This document shows, piece by piece, positions 2,094 to 36,995 of a stretch of 37,178 nt of DNA. Source of the stretch: Bacteroidales bacterium (GTDB lineage Bacteria > Bacteroidota > Bacteroidia > Bacteroidales > JAADJA01); NCBI GenBank assembly GCA_016933115.1, contig JAFGBL010000253.1, forward strand, positions 1 to 37,178, read 5' to 3'. Position numbers and translations under genes: made by a program. The notes under the pieces are model-generated. The model did not search any database. It was not told the DNA's origin and saw nothing but the letters and a program-made list of their open reading frames with translations. Position 1 is the first letter of the stretch; the number at the start of each line of letters is the position of its first letter.

Positions 2094-3578
2094 TCAAATA
2101 TTAAAAACCCCAAATGTTTTGCGGAAATGATACCCGTAAATGGAGTAGGTAATCGCCAGGGGGAAAATGGAAGGTTTTTTGAACAGGCTCCAAAAAAATA
2201 ACCGCCAGTAATATTTGCGGCTTCTGTCAATAGCTCCCAGTACAAAAATTGATTTCAACAATGCCATGAAGTCGCGAAACGACACCTTTGTTTTATTTGC
2301 AGTTACAGGATCGAATTCCTTCAAAAAATGCATCACCCTTTTATAATAGGGTTTACAGGCATATATGCCATTGATGATATTCCGGTAACCATTTAGTAAT
2401 TCATCGCGGTCCATTTTGGGTAGGAAATTCATGCTATAATCGGTATTGTTGCCGCTCATCTCATGGATGATCCGGTCTTCTTTCACCAGGCGCTGGTACA
2501 ATTTTGTTTTTTTGGGAGCATTCAGCAAACCGACCATGGCAGTGATGATGCCGCTGTTTTGTATGAAATCGATCTGGCGTTGAAAAATCGAAGAGGTATC
2601 ATTGTCGAAACCTACTATGAACCCGGCAGTAACCTCTATTCCCGATTGCTGAATAGTATTGACACTGCGTATCAGATCGCGGTTCTTATTCTGGGTCTTG
2701 TTGCATTCCGACAGGCATGACTCTTCAGGGGTTTCAATACCGACGAACACATTACCAAATCCGGCCTGCGCCATGAGTTTCATTAGCTCAGGGTCATCTG
2801 CCAGGTTGATGGATGCCTCTGTAGTGAACGAAAAGGGACTTTTTCTGGCTTTCATCCATTCAATCATGGCCGGAAGCAAATCGTATTTGAGGCGTTTTTT
2901 ATTGCCGATAAAATTATCATCCACAAACAGGATATTTCCCCGCCAACCCGTGTTGTAAATGGCCTGGAGTTCCATTAAAATACGGTGCGTCGGTTTGGTC
3001 CTCACTTTGTGACCGAACAATGCAGTGACATCGCAAAAATCGCAATTGAAAGGGCATCCCCTCGAAAATTGGATGTTAATGGATGCATATTTTTTAATTC
3101 TCAGCAAGGAATAGTCGGGAAGCGGAGTCTCGTCCAGGTCGGGAAAGTTTGCATTCTGATAGATTTTTTTTGGGATTCCGGCATTCACATCGTGAATGAA
3201 CTGGTCGAGGGTCAGTTCGGCTTCATTTAAAATCAGGTGGTCGATTTCATTGAAATCCTCGAAATAGGAGGTGAACAGTGGCCCCCCTGCAACGGTAGGT
3301 TTATGCATGGCTTTGCATCGCACTATCAATTCCAGTACCGATTGTTTCTGGACAGACATGGCACTGATGTATACATAATCGGCCCACTTCAGATGTTTTT
3401 CCTTGAGTTTGCTCACATTCATGTCCACCAGCTTTTTATTCCAGTTTCCAGGCAGCATGCTGGAAACAGTAATCAATCCAAGCGGCGGATTGGCTGCTTT
3501 CCTGTTGACGAATTTCAGGGCATGTTTAAAGCTCCAGAACGTATCGGGATATTCGGGATATACGAGGAGTATGTTCAT
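2094..3578 (-). CDS. Radical SAM protein with N-terminal B12-binding-like domain (DUF4070 type)
   Basis: A cytoplasmic radical SAM enzyme of 494 residues. Residues 1-140 form a B12-binding-like Rossmann domain (MNILLVYPEYPDTFW start) with no visible DxHxxG cobalamin motif. The radical SAM core follows, with the 4Fe-4S motif CPFNCDFC (C175, C179, C182) and, further on, a VDDNF strand and a GxETP segment. The C-terminal region matches the DUF4070 type of B12-binding radical SAM proteins. Substrate unknown; relatives include hopanoid- and lipid-modifying enzymes. I chose the ATG at 3578 because the domain begins exactly there and the 31 upstream codons run through an inverted repeat and a tandem operator-like repeat. 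It lies downstream of the LytTR regulator gene on the same strand (127-base gap) and is probably controlled by it. Confidence 0.85.
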   Translation of the reverse strand: MNILLVYPEYPDTFWSFKHALKFVNRKAANPPLGLITVSSMLPGNWNKKLVDMNVSKLKEKHLKWADYVYISAMSVQKQSVLELIVRCKAMHKPTVAGGPLFTSYFEDFNEIDHLILNEAELTLDQFIHDVNAGIPKKIYQNANFPDLDETPLPDYSLLRIKKYASINIQFSRGCPFNCDFCDVTALFGHKVRTKPTHRILMELQAIYNTGWRGNILFVDDNFIGNKKRLKYDLLPAMIEWMKARKSPFSFTTEASINLADDPELMKLMAQAGFGNVFVGIETPEESCLSECNKTQNKNRDLIRSVNTIQQSGIEVTAGFIVGFDNDTSSIFQRQIDFIQNSGIITAMVGLLNAPKKTKLYQRLVKEDRIIHEMSGNNTDYSMNFLPKMDRDELLNGYRNIINGIYACKPYYKRVMHFLKEFDPVTANKTKVSFRDFMALLKSIFVLGAIDRSRKYYWRLFFWSLFKKPSIFPLAITYSIYGYHFRKTFGVFNI

Positions 3579-3580
3579 AA

Positions 3581-3604
3581 TTATCTGCAATATTATACAG
3601 ATAA
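3581..3604 (-). promoter_or_regulatory. Inverted repeat just upstream of the radical SAM start
   Basis: TTATCTG (3581-3587) and CAGATAA (3598-3604) form a perfect seven-base inverted repeat with a ten-base AT-rich spacer, two bases before the ATG at 3578. On the minus strand the spacer holds TAATATTG, one mismatch from the -7 consensus. It may be an operator over the promoter or a leader hairpin. Confidence 0.4.
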
Positions 3605-3634
3605 TATATGCGGTTCCGAAATTTGTGATAAAGT

Positions 3635-3674
3635 GAAGGTTTAAGGGACAAATGGATGGTTTGAGGGACAAATG
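3635..3674 (-). promoter_or_regulatory. Tandem 20-bp direct repeat, predicted LytTR operator
   Basis: Two back-to-back 20-base units, GAAGGTTTAAGGGACAAATG (3635-3654) and GATGGTTTGAGGGACAAATG (3655-3674), differ at two positions. They lie 57-96 bases upstream of the radical SAM start and immediately downstream of the LytTR gene. LytTR-domain regulators are known to bind paired direct repeats about two helical turns apart, and a 20-base period fits that. That this regulator binds here is inference. Confidence 0.55.
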
Positions 3675-3705
3675 TCATTCAGCCCTTGACGAATGATATC
3701 TTCAT

Positions 3706-4557
3706 TCAACGGCTCTTAATGGCTTCCTTTACCTGCATGATGTACTGCCTTGAAATATGTACCTTTTCTTCCATATTTTTGAGTTGAAGCGATACACCCT
3801 GCGAACTACTGACAAGTTTAACAATGTAATCCCGGTTGACCAATGTGGTACGGTGGCACCGGATGATGTTAGAATGGGATTTTAAAAGGTTCTCAGCATA
3901 AACAAGTGTCGATCGGATCAATTTCTTTTTAATATTCCCGTTGTCATTCACATATATCTCAATGTAGTTGTTGGCCGATTTAATTATCACCAGGTTGGAT
4001 AGAGAGACATTAAAATTTTCGGATTTGTTTTCGGTGATAAATTCTATTTCTTTTTCAGGCACTGCCAAATCGTAGGGTGCCGCCGTTGTTTTTACCAATT
4101 CCCTGATCTTCTGAAAACCGATTTTGTAGATTTTAAATTGGTGTAGCACAATGATAGAAACCACTGGGATCAGTCCAAGTAGGATTATTCGAAATGACAA
4201 GTGAAAGGTAATGCTGATCAAACCGACATAGCGGGCATAAAAATTAAAAGCGATGGCCAGGAATGCCCAGCTAACAAAATTCAACAAAATATCTTTATAA
4301 AGCCGCCAGTTTCCTTTGAGAAATACCTTCGGGAAAATCGATGGCAGCACAATATTGTTCAAACACAGGATAAGAAAAGTTATTCCACCAAAACCCGCTA
4401 TGATCAATAGCTGATCGTTAAATTCAAAATCACGCAGTTCAAACGGTTGAAAAAACAGAATAAACAGGAAAAGGAATAAACTGATACCGAAAATGACCTT
4501 TAGGTTATAAACCAGCTCATCAAAAAAAGGATAGGGGTTTTTCAGGCTGTTGAGCAT
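3706..4557 (-). CDS. Membrane-anchored LytTR-domain transcriptional regulator
   Basis: A 283-residue protein with four hydrophobic helices in its first ~155 residues (segments around ISLFLFLFILFF, LIIAGFGGITFLILCL, FVSWAFLAIAFNFY and IILLGLIPVVSIIVL), a short linker, and a C-terminal LytTR DNA-binding domain over the last ~100 residues. Visible LytTR signatures are IKSANNYIEIYV, LIRSTL, IIRCHRTTLVNRDYI and HISRQYI. There is no receiver or kinase domain and no kinase gene next to it, so it probably senses a membrane signal directly. I chose the ATG at 4557 over one at 4581: a perfect -7 word (TAACTTTG, plus coordinates 4579-4586, minus strand) overlaps the upstream ATG, and the M-L-N-x-L-x-x-P-Y-P-F start is natural. 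The tandem repeat just beyond its 3' end suggests control of the radical SAM gene. Confidence 0.85.
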   Translation of the reverse strand: MLNSLKNPYPFFDELVYNLKVIFGISLFLFLFILFFQPFELRDFEFNDQLLIIAGFGGITFLILCLNNIVLPSIFPKVFLKGNWRLYKDILLNFVSWAFLAIAFNFYARYVGLISITFHLSFRIILLGLIPVVSIIVLHQFKIYKIGFQKIRELVKTTAAPYDLAVPEKEIEFITENKSENFNVSLSNLVIIKSANNYIEIYVNDNGNIKKKLIRSTLVYAENLLKSHSNIIRCHRTTLVNRDYIVKLVSSSQGVSLQLKNMEEKVHISRQYIMQVKEAIKSR

Positions 4558-13998: not shown

Positions 13999-15099
13999 TT
14001 GTCGGGAAAAGAGAAAAATAATAAATCTGCACTAAAGGTCAACAAAGGGATTGAGCAACCTTCAGCATTCCATCCCGAAGCCAAATCACGATTTAAAAAA
14101 ACGTTGGTTTCGGATGTAGATCCAGAAACCTATTTTAATGGGATCAGGGCGGGAAACCGGGCCCTTTTGAGTAAAGCCATTACCCTGGTTGAAAGTTCTC
14201 TGGCCTTACACCAGAAAACAGCCCAGGAAATAATTGAAAGATGCCTGCCACATGCTGGTAATTCCATCCGGATTGGAATTACGGGTGTTCCGGGTGTCGG
14301 CAAAAGCACTTTTATTGAATCGTTGGGTACTTTTCTTACCGGGCAGGGGCATCGCCTGGCTGTACTGGCCATCGATCCCAGCAGTGAGAAAACCAAAGGG
14401 AGCATCCTGGGTGATAAAACGAGGATGGAACAACTGGCCAACGATAAAAATGCTTTTATCCGCCCTTCTCCTTCCGCCGGCTCTCTGGGTGGTGTAACGC
14501 GAAAAACCAAAGAGATCATCATTTTGTGTGAGGCTGCCGGATTTGATACCATCTTTGTCGAAACGGTTGGAGTAGGACAGTCGGAAACGGCTGTGCATTC
14601 CATGGTCGATTTTTTCCTGCTGCTCATGCTGGCCGGGGCCGGAGATGAATTGCAGGGTATCAAGCGGGGTATCATGGAAATGGCCGATGCTATTGTGATC
14701 AATAAAGCAGATGGTGACAACATCCAAAAAGCAAAAATGGCCGTAAGGGAATACAGCAATGCTTTGCACCTTTTTCCACCTTCTGCTTCGGGCTGGACTC
14801 CTGTTGTGAAAATGTGCTCATCTCGGATTAATAGCGGTATTGAAGAAATTTGGCAATCAATTGAAAAATTCAGGACCTTTACCCTTTCCAATGGCTATTT
14901 TCAAAAACACCGACAGGAGCAGGAGTTGCGACTTATGCTTGAAGCCATTCACAACTTGTTGAAAGACCATTTTTATAGTCATGCAATGGTTTCGGAACAA
15001 TTAAAGATTTACCAGGGAAAAGTACTTCATGGGAAATTGAGTGCGTACCAGGCAGCATCGGAACTGCTCAAAATATATTTCAAGCACATTTCCTTATAA
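13999..15099 (+). CDS. meaB: MeaB/ArgK-type GTPase, methylmalonyl-CoA mutase chaperone
   Basis: A cytoplasmic G3E-family GTPase of 366 residues that loads and protects the adenosylcobalamin-dependent methylmalonyl-CoA mutase. Visible motifs are the Walker A GVPGVGKST (96-104), VLAIDPSS with the family's KTKGSILGDKTRM block, the switch segment ETVGVGQSE (188-196), and the guanine-specificity motif NKAD (235-238). The C-terminal helical part is complete. The start is a TTG at 13999; no ATG gives a full N-terminus, and a -7 element lies just upstream. No mutase subunit gene is in the window, so its client must be encoded elsewhere. Its stop codon overlaps the convergent terC-family gene by six bases. 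Confidence 0.93.
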   Translation: MSGKEKNNKSALKVNKGIEQPSAFHPEAKSRFKKTLVSDVDPETYFNGIRAGNRALLSKAITLVESSLALHQKTAQEIIERCLPHAGNSIRIGITGVPGVGKSTFIESLGTFLTGQGHRLAVLAIDPSSEKTKGSILGDKTRMEQLANDKNAFIRPSPSAGSLGGVTRKTKEIIILCEAAGFDTIFVETVGVGQSETAVHSMVDFFLLLMLAGAGDELQGIKRGIMEMADAIVINKADGDNIQKAKMAVREYSNALHLFPPSASGWTPVVKMCSSRINSGIEEIWQSIEKFRTFTLSNGYFQKHRQEQELRLMLEAIHNLLKDHFYSHAMVSEQLKIYQGKVLHGKLSAYQAASELLKIYFKHISL

Positions 15100-33197: not shown

Positions 33198-36100
33198 CTA
33201 ACGAATAATGATTCGATTTACTGTTCTCCCTTGGCAGTTTTCAATTACAAGGAAGTACAGACCTTTATATAATTCGCTTAAGTCAATTGTTGCTTTGTAA
33301 ATTCCATCTACAAATATATTATTTTTTTCAAAAACAACAGAACTTAAAGAATTTATTACTTTAATATTTACATTTTCTTCAACATCAGAACTAAATTCAA
33401 CATTAAATAAACCGTTAGAAGGATTCGGATAAACACTCAAACCTGCTTCTGTTAGCTCATCCATGCCGGTACAAATGTTAACTGTTATATAATCGGTCCT
33501 TGTATAAGTATTGGAATTTGAACCGTCGGAAACAGTCAGTATCACATCATAAACACCAGCTGTATTATAAGTCACTTCAGGATTTTGTTCAGTTGATGAT
33601 TCAGGATCCCCACCCGGGAATTCCCAACTCCACGAGGTTACGTTTCCGGTTGAATAATCAACGTAAGATACCATTTCACCTTCACAAACTTCGGTAACAT
33701 CAGCCATAAAATAAGCCAACATATCCTGGCCGGTAATCCCGAAGAAATTGAGGAATTCAGCCATCAATTCAGCTTTGGTTGATGGTGAAGCTCCGTCATT
33801 CAGGCCACCAAATTCGTGAGAAGTTCCGATTGTTTTATAATCACCCGCATCATAAGCAACACCTGTTCCATAGCTGGGAGATTGGTTTTTAAGAATGGTG
33901 AATGCAGAACCAACCGGATCAATGTGGTCCATCCAGTTATTTTCTCCTGAATAATTGAATGACATGCCTTCAGTAAAAGTTCCGGCTTGTCCCTGAACGG
34001 TTCCCATATCGCTTGAACCATCCTCTGTTCCGTTGATATTGAACATATTGTGGACAGCTGTTTGTGAGTCAAAATACCAGGTATCTCCACCTTCCATATA
34101 AAGTGCGCCACCCTGGTTCAGGTAATCAGCCAAATCCTGTCCTTCAGAACTGGTTAACACATGGTTATCCGAATAGATTCCGAGGCAGAGGAAAACGGAT
34201 GAATACAGGCTCAGGTCGTCCGGCATACTGGTAACATATTCAGCAACAACTCCATTGTCGTCCATAGCCTGAACCATTTCAGGTCCTGAACTTGCATTTC
34301 CATCCAGGTCAATAACGAGTACAGGAATTTGGCCGACAACTTCAATAAATGATCCCATTCCTGAAATACCCATATCAGCGCCAATTTCAAAGTTGAAAGT
34401 AACTGCATGGCCTGTGGGTGTACTTTCCGAAGCCATCACCACAAAGCTTTCAGATACTGAACTTCCGGCATCAATATCGCCATATTCACTGGAAACGGTT
34501 TCAATTGTAATATATGGGTCGGCGCATATGATCTCACCAGTTACATTGTAAGCTGCTGAAGAACCATCATTCATGATGCCGACATTGATTTCAACAGTTT
34601 CCCCCGGATCGATCTTGCCATTCCCATTCCCGGATTGATCATCTATTGTGTAATCTCCCATTTCGATTACAGGAGCATGCAATATAATTGTCATAGTACT
34701 GGTCCATAGAGATTTATTTCCGTCGGTAAATTCTACCTCGAACATGGCAGAATAACCATCCGGTGTATTTTCAGCTATTTCGATTTCAAAAGCTCCTTCT
34801 CCATCAACAACCGTTCCGGCTGCAATATCGCCGAAAGTATGAGAATCATCGGTTATGGTAATGTAAGGATCGGAAGACATCAAGGTAGCCATCACTCCGG
34901 TTGCATCATCATCGCCGACGTTCTCGGCAGCAACATCCAGCAATACGGTTTCACCATAATCTGCCTGACCATTATTGTTTCCACCTGCATCGTTCACTTC
35001 ACAATTATTCACAATAATCCATGCTCCTCCGGGAGGAACGACAGTTACTTCTTCGTAAATGGTTTCGGTATTGAACCCGGTAACAACCAATTTTGCCATC
35101 CCGGGTGATAATGTGTTATCGATCGAAACTGAACCGGAGGCATCAGTAACAGCACTGAAGTAAGCATCTTCCTGCGAAATACAAACCATTGCACCTTCAA
35201 CTGCTCCGTCAGGTCCTGTAATAATTGTGCTAAAAGGAACACCGACCAAAATTACATTGTTCGATAAATTGAGGTTGGCAGGTTCATCTGTTCTTGGTTG
35301 CATTGCTGCATCCCCGAAAATATGCCATGTTTTGGCAGTTTCCCAGTCACTTGAACCTCCCGATTCGGTTGTCATTAAAACCAGGCCGTTAAATACCATT
35401 GCACCCAGCGTGGTTCTTTGTTCTTCATTATTTATACCGTTCTGGCCCGGATAAGCACTGTAATTATACCCACCTACCAAAACGTCATTAAAATAATCTT
35501 CTCCGCGCATTGGAGGATCCCAAGGCTGACTAATGGTAGCACCCAGGAACATGACAGCACCGCCTCCACTTTTCTTTACCCAGGCTTCAGCAAAACAATC
35601 GCCGGCATCATGAAAATTACCATTGTTGCACGCAACGGAAAATATAATGGGTAACATATCGCCATTGGTCAAAGTAGATACATTACTATTGCTGAAACCT
35701 GATGATCCCCATGAAGTAGCAGATCCATGACCGCAATAATTAATGATGGATGCTCCGGCTTCAACTGCATTTTTTACCATTGTAGTGTTGGCTGAAGGAT
35801 CATAAATCTGTGTAAAATTATCATACGTAAACTGGCTGAGCCTATTGTCATAAATCACATCAATGTGTTCGTAATCCAACTCATTATCATCACCAGGCCC
35901 CTGGTTCGAGGCGATTCCGATAGCACTTTTATACCAATCCTCACCCATTTGCGGGTTTTTTTCATAATTGATAACTTTATCTACCTGAATAGTTACATGG
36001 GAAGGATTATTGGCTGAAAAACGTCCGACAGTAATATCGGGATAGTTATCTGATCCAACAACACATCCTAATTGTGGGTCCATCGGAGCATATCCACTCA

Positions 36101-36995
36101 TTAAATCACTTTTAATATCTGCCCAGTCACCGACAAGCTGAACATACAACAAGTTGTTATTTGCATTATAAGCCTGTTGAATAAGCGTTTTTACATTGGT
36201 TCCTGTTGCAACCACCTCGAGGGAAATGTTATAACCTTTTTCAAGTTTCCAGTCAATATAGGGTTGAATGGCTTCTATATCCCTGTCGGTGCTTATTACG
36301 AGTATATCGCCATATTCTCCAATCGTAAGGGGATCTTTACCTGAATCATAGTTAATAAAGATTGACCTGTAAACGCCATCCATTTCCCTCAATATTTTTT
36401 CGGATTGAACGGTCAATGGATTAGTTGCAGGTGTATTGTTTTCAACCAATTGAACTGTAAGGTTTTTATAAACCCTGAGCACCTTTGTTACTGCATTGTA
36501 TCTGAAAGGATATACATAAACCGTCGTGCCGCGAACATCTTTAATAATAAATGGATCCACATTCGTGGCCAGGTTTTGTGGATACCATGCATCTCGCATG
36601 CTGGAAGGGCTAATTACATAAGGTACAGTTGAAGGGTCCTGGTCCCTGTAAATAACTCCGCGTGAAGGCAGCATAGGGAAATCCAGCACATAATCTTCAA
36701 AATCTCCTTCAATTAATTTTAAGGTTACGTTCTTATTCGCAGGCAGTTGAACGGAAGCATTGACAAATGGAAGTTCAGCAAAGCCTTTTAACTGAGTAAA
36801 TACGCTTCCATCAAAAACAAGCCTGGAATAGGTAACACCATCAATAGAAATTTGATCGATACCATATTCTTCCAAAGTAAAATTAAGTTGATAAATATCA
36901 TTCGACGGTTGGTCAAATGAAACCTGGTATCCTTTTTCAGCTAAAAGCGACAAGGAACCAGATAAAAGCAATAGAAATAATAAAAGTTTTTTCAT
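33198..36995 (-). CDS. Gingipain-like C25 cysteine protease, multidomain, T9SS-sorted
   Basis: A 1265-residue secreted protease. Layout: signal peptide (1-19); C25 propeptide (~20-205); C25 caspase-like catalytic domain (~228-570) with H423 in NYCGHGSATSWG and C456 in FSVACNNGNFHDAGD; Ig-like domain (~575-655); two related beta domains (~663-775 and ~778-888), each with GNxNGxxDxGETVxxxV and DPYITI; a Rossmann-like, GATase/ThuA-type domain (~890-1088); a PKD domain (~1095-1173, with SWSWEFPGGDPESS); and a T9SS sorting domain (1186-1265, LSVYPNPSNG ... VNRIIIR). Gingipains cleave after Arg or Lys; specificity here cannot be read. It is flanked by terminators on both sides, so it is monocistronic. 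Relatives include PorU, but PorU has no sorting domain. Confidence 0.92.
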   Translation of the reverse strand: MKKLLLFLLLLSGSLSLLAEKGYQVSFDQPSNDIYQLNFTLEEYGIDQISIDGVTYSRLVFDGSVFTQLKGFAELPFVNASVQLPANKNVTLKLIEGDFEDYVLDFPMLPSRGVIYRDQDPSTVPYVISPSSMRDAWYPQNLATNVDPFIIKDVRGTTVYVYPFRYNAVTKVLRVYKNLTVQLVENNTPATNPLTVQSEKILREMDGVYRSIFINYDSGKDPLTIGEYGDILVISTDRDIEAIQPYIDWKLEKGYNISLEVVATGTNVKTLIQQAYNANNNLLYVQLVGDWADIKSDLMSGYAPMDPQLGCVVGSDNYPDITVGRFSANNPSHVTIQVDKVINYEKNPQMGEDWYKSAIGIASNQGPGDDNELDYEHIDVIYDNRLSQFTYDNFTQIYDPSANTTMVKNAVEAGASIINYCGHGSATSWGSSGFSNSNVSTLTNGDMLPIIFSVACNNGNFHDAGDCFAEAWVKKSGGGAVMFLGATISQPWDPPMRGEDYFNDVLVGGYNYSAYPGQNGINNEEQRTTLGAMVFNGLVLMTTESGGSSDWETAKTWHIFGDAAMQPRTDEPANLNLSNNVILVGVPFSTIITGPDGAVEGAMVCISQEDAYFSAVTDASGSVSIDNTLSPGMAKLVVTGFNTETIYEEVTVVPPGGAWIIVNNCEVNDAGGNNNGQADYGETVLLDVAAENVGDDDATGVMATLMSSDPYITITDDSHTFGDIAAGTVVDGEGAFEIEIAENTPDGYSAMFEVEFTDGNKSLWTSTMTIILHAPVIEMGDYTIDDQSGNGNGKIDPGETVEINVGIMNDGSSAAYNVTGEIICADPYITIETVSSEYGDIDAGSSVSESFVVMASESTPTGHAVTFNFEIGADMGISGMGSFIEVVGQIPVLVIDLDGNASSGPEMVQAMDDNGVVAEYVTSMPDDLSLYSSVFLCLGIYSDNHVLTSSEGQDLADYLNQGGALYMEGGDTWYFDSQTAVHNMFNINGTEDGSSDMGTVQGQAGTFTEGMSFNYSGENNWMDHIDPVGSAFTILKNQSPSYGTGVAYDAGDYKTIGTSHEFGGLNDGASPSTKAELMAEFLNFFGITGQDMLAYFMADVTEVCEGEMVSYVDYSTGNVTSWSWEFPGGDPESSTEQNPEVTYNTAGVYDVILTVSDGSNSNTYTRTDYITVNICTGMDELTEAGLSVYPNPSNGLFNVEFSSDVEENVNIKVINSLSSVVFEKNNIFVDGIYKATIDLSELYKGLYFLVIENCQGRTVNRIIIR

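Follow-up and report, generated by a model that had tools for sequence, protein, structure and literature searches.

The 20-bp direct repeat between a membrane LytTR gene and a radical SAM gene of a Bacteroidales bacterium is probably the middle half of a four-half-site activator operator

A near-perfect tandem duplication lies between two minus-strand genes of a Bacteroidales bacterium, and its position raises the question of what it controls. In the 37,178-nucleotide stretch of DNA that was analysed (the window), the gene for a membrane LytTR regulator ends at 3706 and, after 127 bp, the gene for a radical SAM enzyme begins with its ATG at 3578. The repeat between them comprises 3635-3654 (GAAGGTTTAAGGGACAAATG) and 3655-3674 (GATGGTTTGAGGGACAAATG), which are identical at 18 of 20 bases with a 20-bp period, and reads CATTTGTCCCTCAAACCATC CATTTGTCCCTTAAACCTTC on the coding (minus) strand. 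Two adjacent 20-bp direct repeats had been described here in an earlier note, and this was borne out, with only 1 of 20,000 first-order Markov shuffles of the 127-bp intergenic region equalling their identity. No other repeat of at least 18/20 was present at lags 18-23 within the window. LytTR operators consist of direct repeats of approximately 9 bp, separated by 10-13 bp and located upstream of a promoter.

On the minus strand, four half-sites stand in tandem (Table 1), and the duplication forms numbers 2 and 3; the TTC-type cores lie at 3693, 3672, 3652 and 3632, in steps of 21, 20 and 20 bp. The array thus has four half-sites rather than two, including weaker in-register copies at cores 3693 and 3632; the earlier note had included neither these flanking copies nor the -7 box 37 bp past the last core. 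The half-site consensus approximates YCATTCRYCCCTAA, arranged as direct repeats 20-21 bp apart, a distance of two helical turns that places all half-sites on one face of the DNA. The pair formed by half-sites 2 and 3 scored 26.96 bits with a held-out matrix, trained on 65 loci in which the next gene is not a radical SAM gene, and was matched by 0/20,000 shuffles. Half-site 1 of the window was weak (-2.5 bits). A strict pair pattern, scanned across the whole assembly, gave six matches, namely this site twice (the pair of half-sites 3 and 4 was also recovered) and four within ORFs, so that this site was the only intergenic one. As the reversed control pattern gave two matches, a wider regulon in the same genome was rejected.

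Table 1. Positions of the features of the locus within the window.
Feature	Position	Strand	Comment
Half-site 1 (weak), TTCGTCAA	3686..3693	-	21 bp upstream of half-site 2; position kept in L004 (CATTCATC) and L005 (TTCACCCC)
Half-site 2, TTTGTCCC	3665..3672	-	second repeat of the earlier note, reverse strand; 12.9 bits by held-out matrix
Half-site 3, TTTGTCCC	3645..3652	-	first repeat of the earlier note, reverse strand; 14.1 bits by held-out matrix
Half-site 4, TTTATCAC, promoter-proximal	3625..3632	-	5.5 bits; 20 bp past half-site 3
Bacteroidota -7 box, TAATATTG	3588..3595	-	one mismatch to TAnnTTTG; 37 bp from the half-site 4 core
Inverted repeat, ATTATCTG-N10-CAGATAAT	3580..3605		8-bp arms, 10-bp loop; overlaps the -7 box; thought non-functional
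Radical SAM enzyme with DUF4070 and B12-binding-like N-terminal part, 494 aa	2094..3578	-	Radical_SAM E 1.6e-16, DUF4070 E 8.3e-38
Membrane LytTR regulator gene	3706..4557	-	conserved ATG 4557 preferred over TTG 4581

The choice of start codon for the regulator was supported by M9, which is invariant in six orthologues. Four transmembrane helices were predicted (residues 23-44, 54-82, 94-119 and 126-166, counted from 4581), followed by the LytTR domain (Pfam PF04397, E 3.5e-13, 50 bits versus a cut-off of 22.6). The AlphaFold model (pLDDT 83) showed helix-joining loops of approximately 12 residues or fewer and a long last helix running into the cytoplasm, with no recognisable ligand domain. 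The LytTR part of the model matched AgrA, ComE and 3d6w, and the model aligned with AgrA 3bs1/4xqj (AgrA-DNA structures) with a TM-score of 0.80-0.83 by target length. By both sequence and fold, the regulator is thus a LytTR DNA-binding protein, and it is of the transmembrane one-component type, with the helices and the DNA-binding domain in one chain and no partner kinase. Its gene is flanked by the radical SAM gene and by a divergent gene resembling S1/P1 nucleases. In agreement with the earlier note, no kinase was identified among the window genes scanned, a subset of the ORFs.

The window was compared with four loci carrying the same LytTR-radical SAM pair. In L003 and L004, with LytTR proteins 72-74% identical, in L005, and in L006, which alone is from another family, CATTCRYCCC-type cores were present in the same place, 20-21 bp apart. 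The exact 20-bp duplication was specific to the window genome among the orthologues compared; L003 and L004 retained half-sites 2 and 4 and the -7 box, with half-site 3 decayed. Diverged half-sites occupied the same positions, with the same -7 box spacing, in these orthologues and in families at 31-40% protein identity. Where the LytTR protein is more distant, the gene that follows is FabK/nitronate-monooxygenase-like, and TTCRYCCCTAAA repeats at 21 bp occur in the intergenic region. Upstream of a FabK-like gene, the genome of the window itself encodes another LytTR protein (L154; G000 contig C163); in the 320 bp after the LytTR stop, cores occur at 4, 23 and 44, and the box TAATTTTG lies at 81, again 37 bp away.

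The comparison was extended to 141 loci, from named genomes and 393 genomes of the order. Near-identical 9-mer pairs were counted, with no motif assumed, in the 220 bp after the LytTR stop of 100 non-redundant loci; lags of 20 and 21 were found in 16 and 22 loci, and lags of 40 and 41 in 16 and 10, versus approximately four expected. No other lag was clearly enriched in these loci. A matrix trained on all of the loci, and thus in-sample, detected pairs in 90/100, with a spacing of 20 or 21 in nearly all.

A search for the repeat in genomes with the same gene pair, as proposed in the earlier note, was run with the held-out matrix at a threshold of 14 bits. The regions between LytTR and radical SAM genes had a median of 20.1 bits, with 24/29 above the threshold (0.04 expected from shuffles), versus a median of -2.4 and 2/19 for upstream regions of other lineages of the enzyme without a LytTR gene, counts that are not independent events as the loci share descent. 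The proposed operator linking the LytTR protein to the radical SAM gene was thereby corroborated. Similarly, genome G118 has two radical SAM paralogues, and the copy beside the LytTR gene scored 21.8 bits, versus -10.4 for the other. Among the control regions, 0/100 on the opposite strand and 4/514 other intergenic segments of the same loci exceeded 14 bits; three of these four were on the divergent side, beside distant LytTR homologues. Upstream of the LytTR genes, none of 97 regions exceeded the threshold, and autoregulation through this motif was rejected. In L027, L028 and L031, distant LytTR homologues without a downstream array, a high-scoring pair is present upstream on the opposite strand, as if driving the divergent neighbour.

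The -7 box starts 17 bases before the ATG of the radical SAM gene, so the leader of this gene should be only a few bases long. Across the loci, the spacing between the last half-site and the TAnnTTTG box that follows it clustered at 37 bp, or at 76-77 bp where two weaker half-sites intervene. When four half-sites and a TAnnTTTG box 36-38 bp away were fitted to 100 loci with a score threshold of 5, 72 were above the threshold, as were 0/1,000 shuffles, and a spacing of 37 bp was chosen in nearly all of the 72. The window fits this geometry, with its box at 3595 exactly 37 bp from the core at 3632. The array layout is not matched by L135, L015, L057 or a few distant homologues. In the box-anchored logo, the ATCCC of the proximal half-site was the strongest element besides the box, and the -33 position, just downstream of the end of the last half-site, was T-rich and lacked the usual G, as expected of an activator-dependent promoter.

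An inverted repeat at 3581-3604 had also been put forward as a second possible control site. The repeat exists, but its true span is 3580-3605, and the proposed role was not sustained. It overlaps the -7 box, repeats of this kind occurred in 5% of shuffles, and it was not found in L003 or L004, the two closest orthologues. It is probably due to chance.

The radical SAM enzyme shares the Radical_SAM and DUF4070 domains (HpnP, PMC10697835) and a B12-binding-like N-terminus with the B12-dependent radical SAM lipid enzymes HpnP, HpnR and TIGR04072, and its orthologue in L034 passes the B12-binding cut-off. However, all of the NCBIfam scores were far below the cut-offs, with a TIGR04072 match at 70 bits, HpnR at 46 bits versus a cut-off of 650, and HpnP not listed. 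Identity with a known hopanoid or ladderane lipid enzyme was therefore rejected and, as judged from its sequence, the enzyme represents a separate, uncharacterised family. Approximately 10 kb from this gene, the window encodes a MeaB GTPase (13999-15099, plus strand), a chaperone of B12-dependent methylmalonyl-CoA mutase, which is probably unrelated. A gingipain-type Peptidase C25 protein with a PKD domain and a type IX secretion tail is encoded at 33198-36995 (minus strand), and this tail is also present on several other window proteins.

The family of regulators is not tied to the radical SAM enzyme alone; the targets vary, and their common theme is lipid-modifying enzymes. The genes downstream of LytTR genes encode radical SAM enzymes, FabK-like proteins (PF03060), fatty acid desaturases (PF00487) and acyltransferases (PF19576, PF01553), as well as a glycosyltransferase, an acyl-CoA dehydrogenase, a 614-aa protein that has no Pfam match, and a methyltransferase behind which a desaturase is often encoded. 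The glycosyltransferase, methyltransferase and 614-aa proteins do not necessarily act on lipids. In L036, L082, L083, L085 and L116, one operon contains both radical SAM and FabK-like genes, and in L059, L061 and L076 radical SAM and desaturase genes are combined in this way. Within 4 kb on both sides, 46/51 loci had at least one of the queried enzymes (radical SAM, FabK-like, desaturase, acyl-CoA dehydrogenase and linked methyltransferase) downstream on the same strand and 0/51 upstream, a contrast that arises partly by construction, as the queries were drawn from downstream genes. On the LytTR tree, the target label was clustered yet underwent 18 changes, which indicates that the operator travels with the regulator while the targets are swapped.

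Two uncharacterised proteins recur among these targets. In L039-L044, L047-L051 and L058, the first gene after the LytTR gene encodes a protein of approximately 170 aa whose resemblance to the radical SAM enzyme is limited to the B12-binding-like N-terminal part; this stand-alone protein, found in Draconibacterium and Maribellus, has no Pfam match, and a full-length radical SAM enzyme follows it in L041, L046 and L049. A conserved protein of 605-632 aa, also without a Pfam match, is encoded at L065:5959-7800, L078:5987-7801, L092:5836-7653 and L095:5901-7796. It is the first target in the Chlorobiota and in some Bacteroidota, followed in three loci by an acyl-CoA dehydrogenase.

What the computations show directly is the array and how it is conserved and depends on the regulator gene, together with the promoter geometry and the LytTR fold. 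The 20-21 bp steps, the enrichment of only these lags and their doubles, and the 37 bp to the -7 box are those of a LytTR operator, and the array is, on this sequence evidence, very probably the operator of the LytTR protein encoded just upstream. We therefore hold with considerable confidence that 3635-3674 is the middle half of a four-half-site LytTR activator operator, for which a bilayer-linked role is the best explanation. In the proposed mechanism, two membrane-tethered LytTR dimers (or a tetramer) would occupy the four half-sites and bring RNA polymerase to the promoter of the radical SAM gene. The four-helix membrane part, which is almost without extramembrane loops, would sense the state of the bilayer or a lipid, and this would trigger activation of the promoter. 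The regulator is best read as a one-component membrane activator of lipid-modifying genes, one that probably senses the bilayer. Fatty-acid and lipid enzymes predominate among the targets of the family, and the radical SAM enzyme accordingly probably modifies a membrane lipid or its precursor in a B12-dependent reaction.

LytTR proteins typically act as activators when bound just upstream of the -33 region, where the last half-site lies, and this position makes activation likely. A repressor site, at which the bound protein would block RNA polymerase until a signal arrives, has a precedent in CoxC, a membrane one-component LytTR repressor with three direct repeats at 18-21 bp (PMC11347149). 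However, the CoxC repeats overlap the -35 box, and here the last half-site stops short of a -33 position that itself resembles that of an activator-dependent promoter; we regard repression as unlikely. The assignment of the array to the adjacent regulator could also be questioned, since in L119 and L122, the two exceptions among the 19 control regions, an array lies upstream of the enzyme gene with no LytTR gene found in the assembly, as would be seen if another transcription factor, encoded elsewhere, bound the array and the neighbouring LytTR gene were incidental. L119 is truncated at the end of its contig, L122 belongs to the same genus, and these assemblies are only 72-75% complete. The array tracks the LytTR gene rather than the enzyme gene across the genomes compared and persists when the target is swapped, which makes an unrelated factor quite improbable. 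L122 has a full array and no LytTR gene adjacent or elsewhere in its 75% complete assembly; a trans-acting or recently lost regulator is possible there.

That the duplication is a functionless product of recent slippage would fit its restriction to the window genome and the decay of half-site 3 in L003 and L004. The positional conservation of diverged half-sites and of the -7 box spacing argues against this, and we rejected slippage as hardly credible. The signal is the least certain part of the activator reading, with an even chance that it is the membrane or a lipid. The four-helix part might instead sense a small molecule, a gas or the redox state, the lipid theme being a by-product of nearby enzymes. 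Known membrane LytTR regulators respond to other cues, such as CO for CoxC (PMC11347149), and several targets are related to redox or oxygen (radical SAM, desaturase and FabK-like flavoenzyme). However, the short loops and the lack of a recognisable ligand domain, together with the recurrence of desaturases and acyltransferases as targets, point away from such a cue, which we consider plausible at slightly under even chances.

Direct repeats approximately two turns apart upstream of a promoter are LytTR sites that usually activate (PMC6193735) and sometimes repress when they overlap the -35 box (PMC11347149). The half-site core described here, within a putative activator operator, resembles experimentally defined LytTR sites, namely the AlgR cores CCGTTCGTC and CCGTTTGTC (PMC4064291) and the RcoM TTCNNGCA and CoxC TTNNNGCN repeats, 18-21 bp apart (PMC11347149). 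The AlgR cores are one base from CCATTTGTC here, CCGTTCGTC being the closest (PMC4064291). However, AlgR of Pseudomonas aeruginosa, a response regulator, is soluble and works with a kinase, and its sites are scattered and form no phased array. CoxC (Afipia carboxidovorans, MHYT-LytTR) and RcoM are one-component LytTR proteins with three tandem direct repeats two turns apart, and CoxC is membrane-anchored (PMC11347149). CoxC differs in having a seven-helix MHYT sensor and in repressing from the -35 box, and RcoM is not of this membrane type; the system described here has four short-looped helices with no MHYT Pfam match, and its four half-sites differ in sequence and are positioned as for an activator.

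The LytTR Regulatory Systems (LRS) likewise combine a LytTR protein with direct repeats that lie a few bases before the promoter, and LRS-like LytTR proteins of Bacteroides carry transmembrane segments, with a promoter ending in TATCTTTG (PMC6193735). However, LRS require a separate membrane inhibitor protein, and their repeats drive the regulator's own operon. Here, no inhibitor gene lies beside the regulator, 0/97 LytTR genes have upstream sites, and the site would drive the next gene. By its domain and operator design, the window system is a LytTR system, and it is neither LRS nor an MHYT regulator. In Bacillus subtilis, the state of the bilayer governs a desaturase gene through the membrane sensor of DesK/DesR (PMC6879721, PMC11237406). 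The window system may work likewise without a kinase, whereas DesK/DesR consists of two proteins with phosphotransfer and an unrelated DNA-binding domain. In the literature searched, nothing relevant connected LytTR proteins with desaturases, FabK or the control of lipids, although this does not prove that no such work exists, and no description of a four-helix membrane LytTR family was found in the open-access part.

Taken more broadly, and only tentatively, Bacteroidota and Chlorobiota may have a widespread and so far undescribed class of bilayer-sensing, short-looped four-helix LytTR regulators, a kinase-free counterpart of DesK/DesR. Their phased four-half-site operator would be fixed at 37 bp from the -7 box of genes that remodel lipids, and one new lipid-modifying output would be a B12-dependent radical SAM enzyme. 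At least 72 related loci share this switch, mostly before enzymes predicted to modify lipids. The operator code (half-site, spacing and promoter distance) applies to a large membrane LytTR family for which none was found in the searched literature, and it allows targets to be predicted from sequence. One control logic ties together the uncharacterised DUF4070 radical SAM and FabK-like enzymes and the desaturases. The switch can be tested in Draconibacterium orientale and Maribellus luteus, cultured relatives that carry the family. The system suggests how these bacteria might sense their membranes without a kinase, and the switch may be a way in which they read and adjust them.
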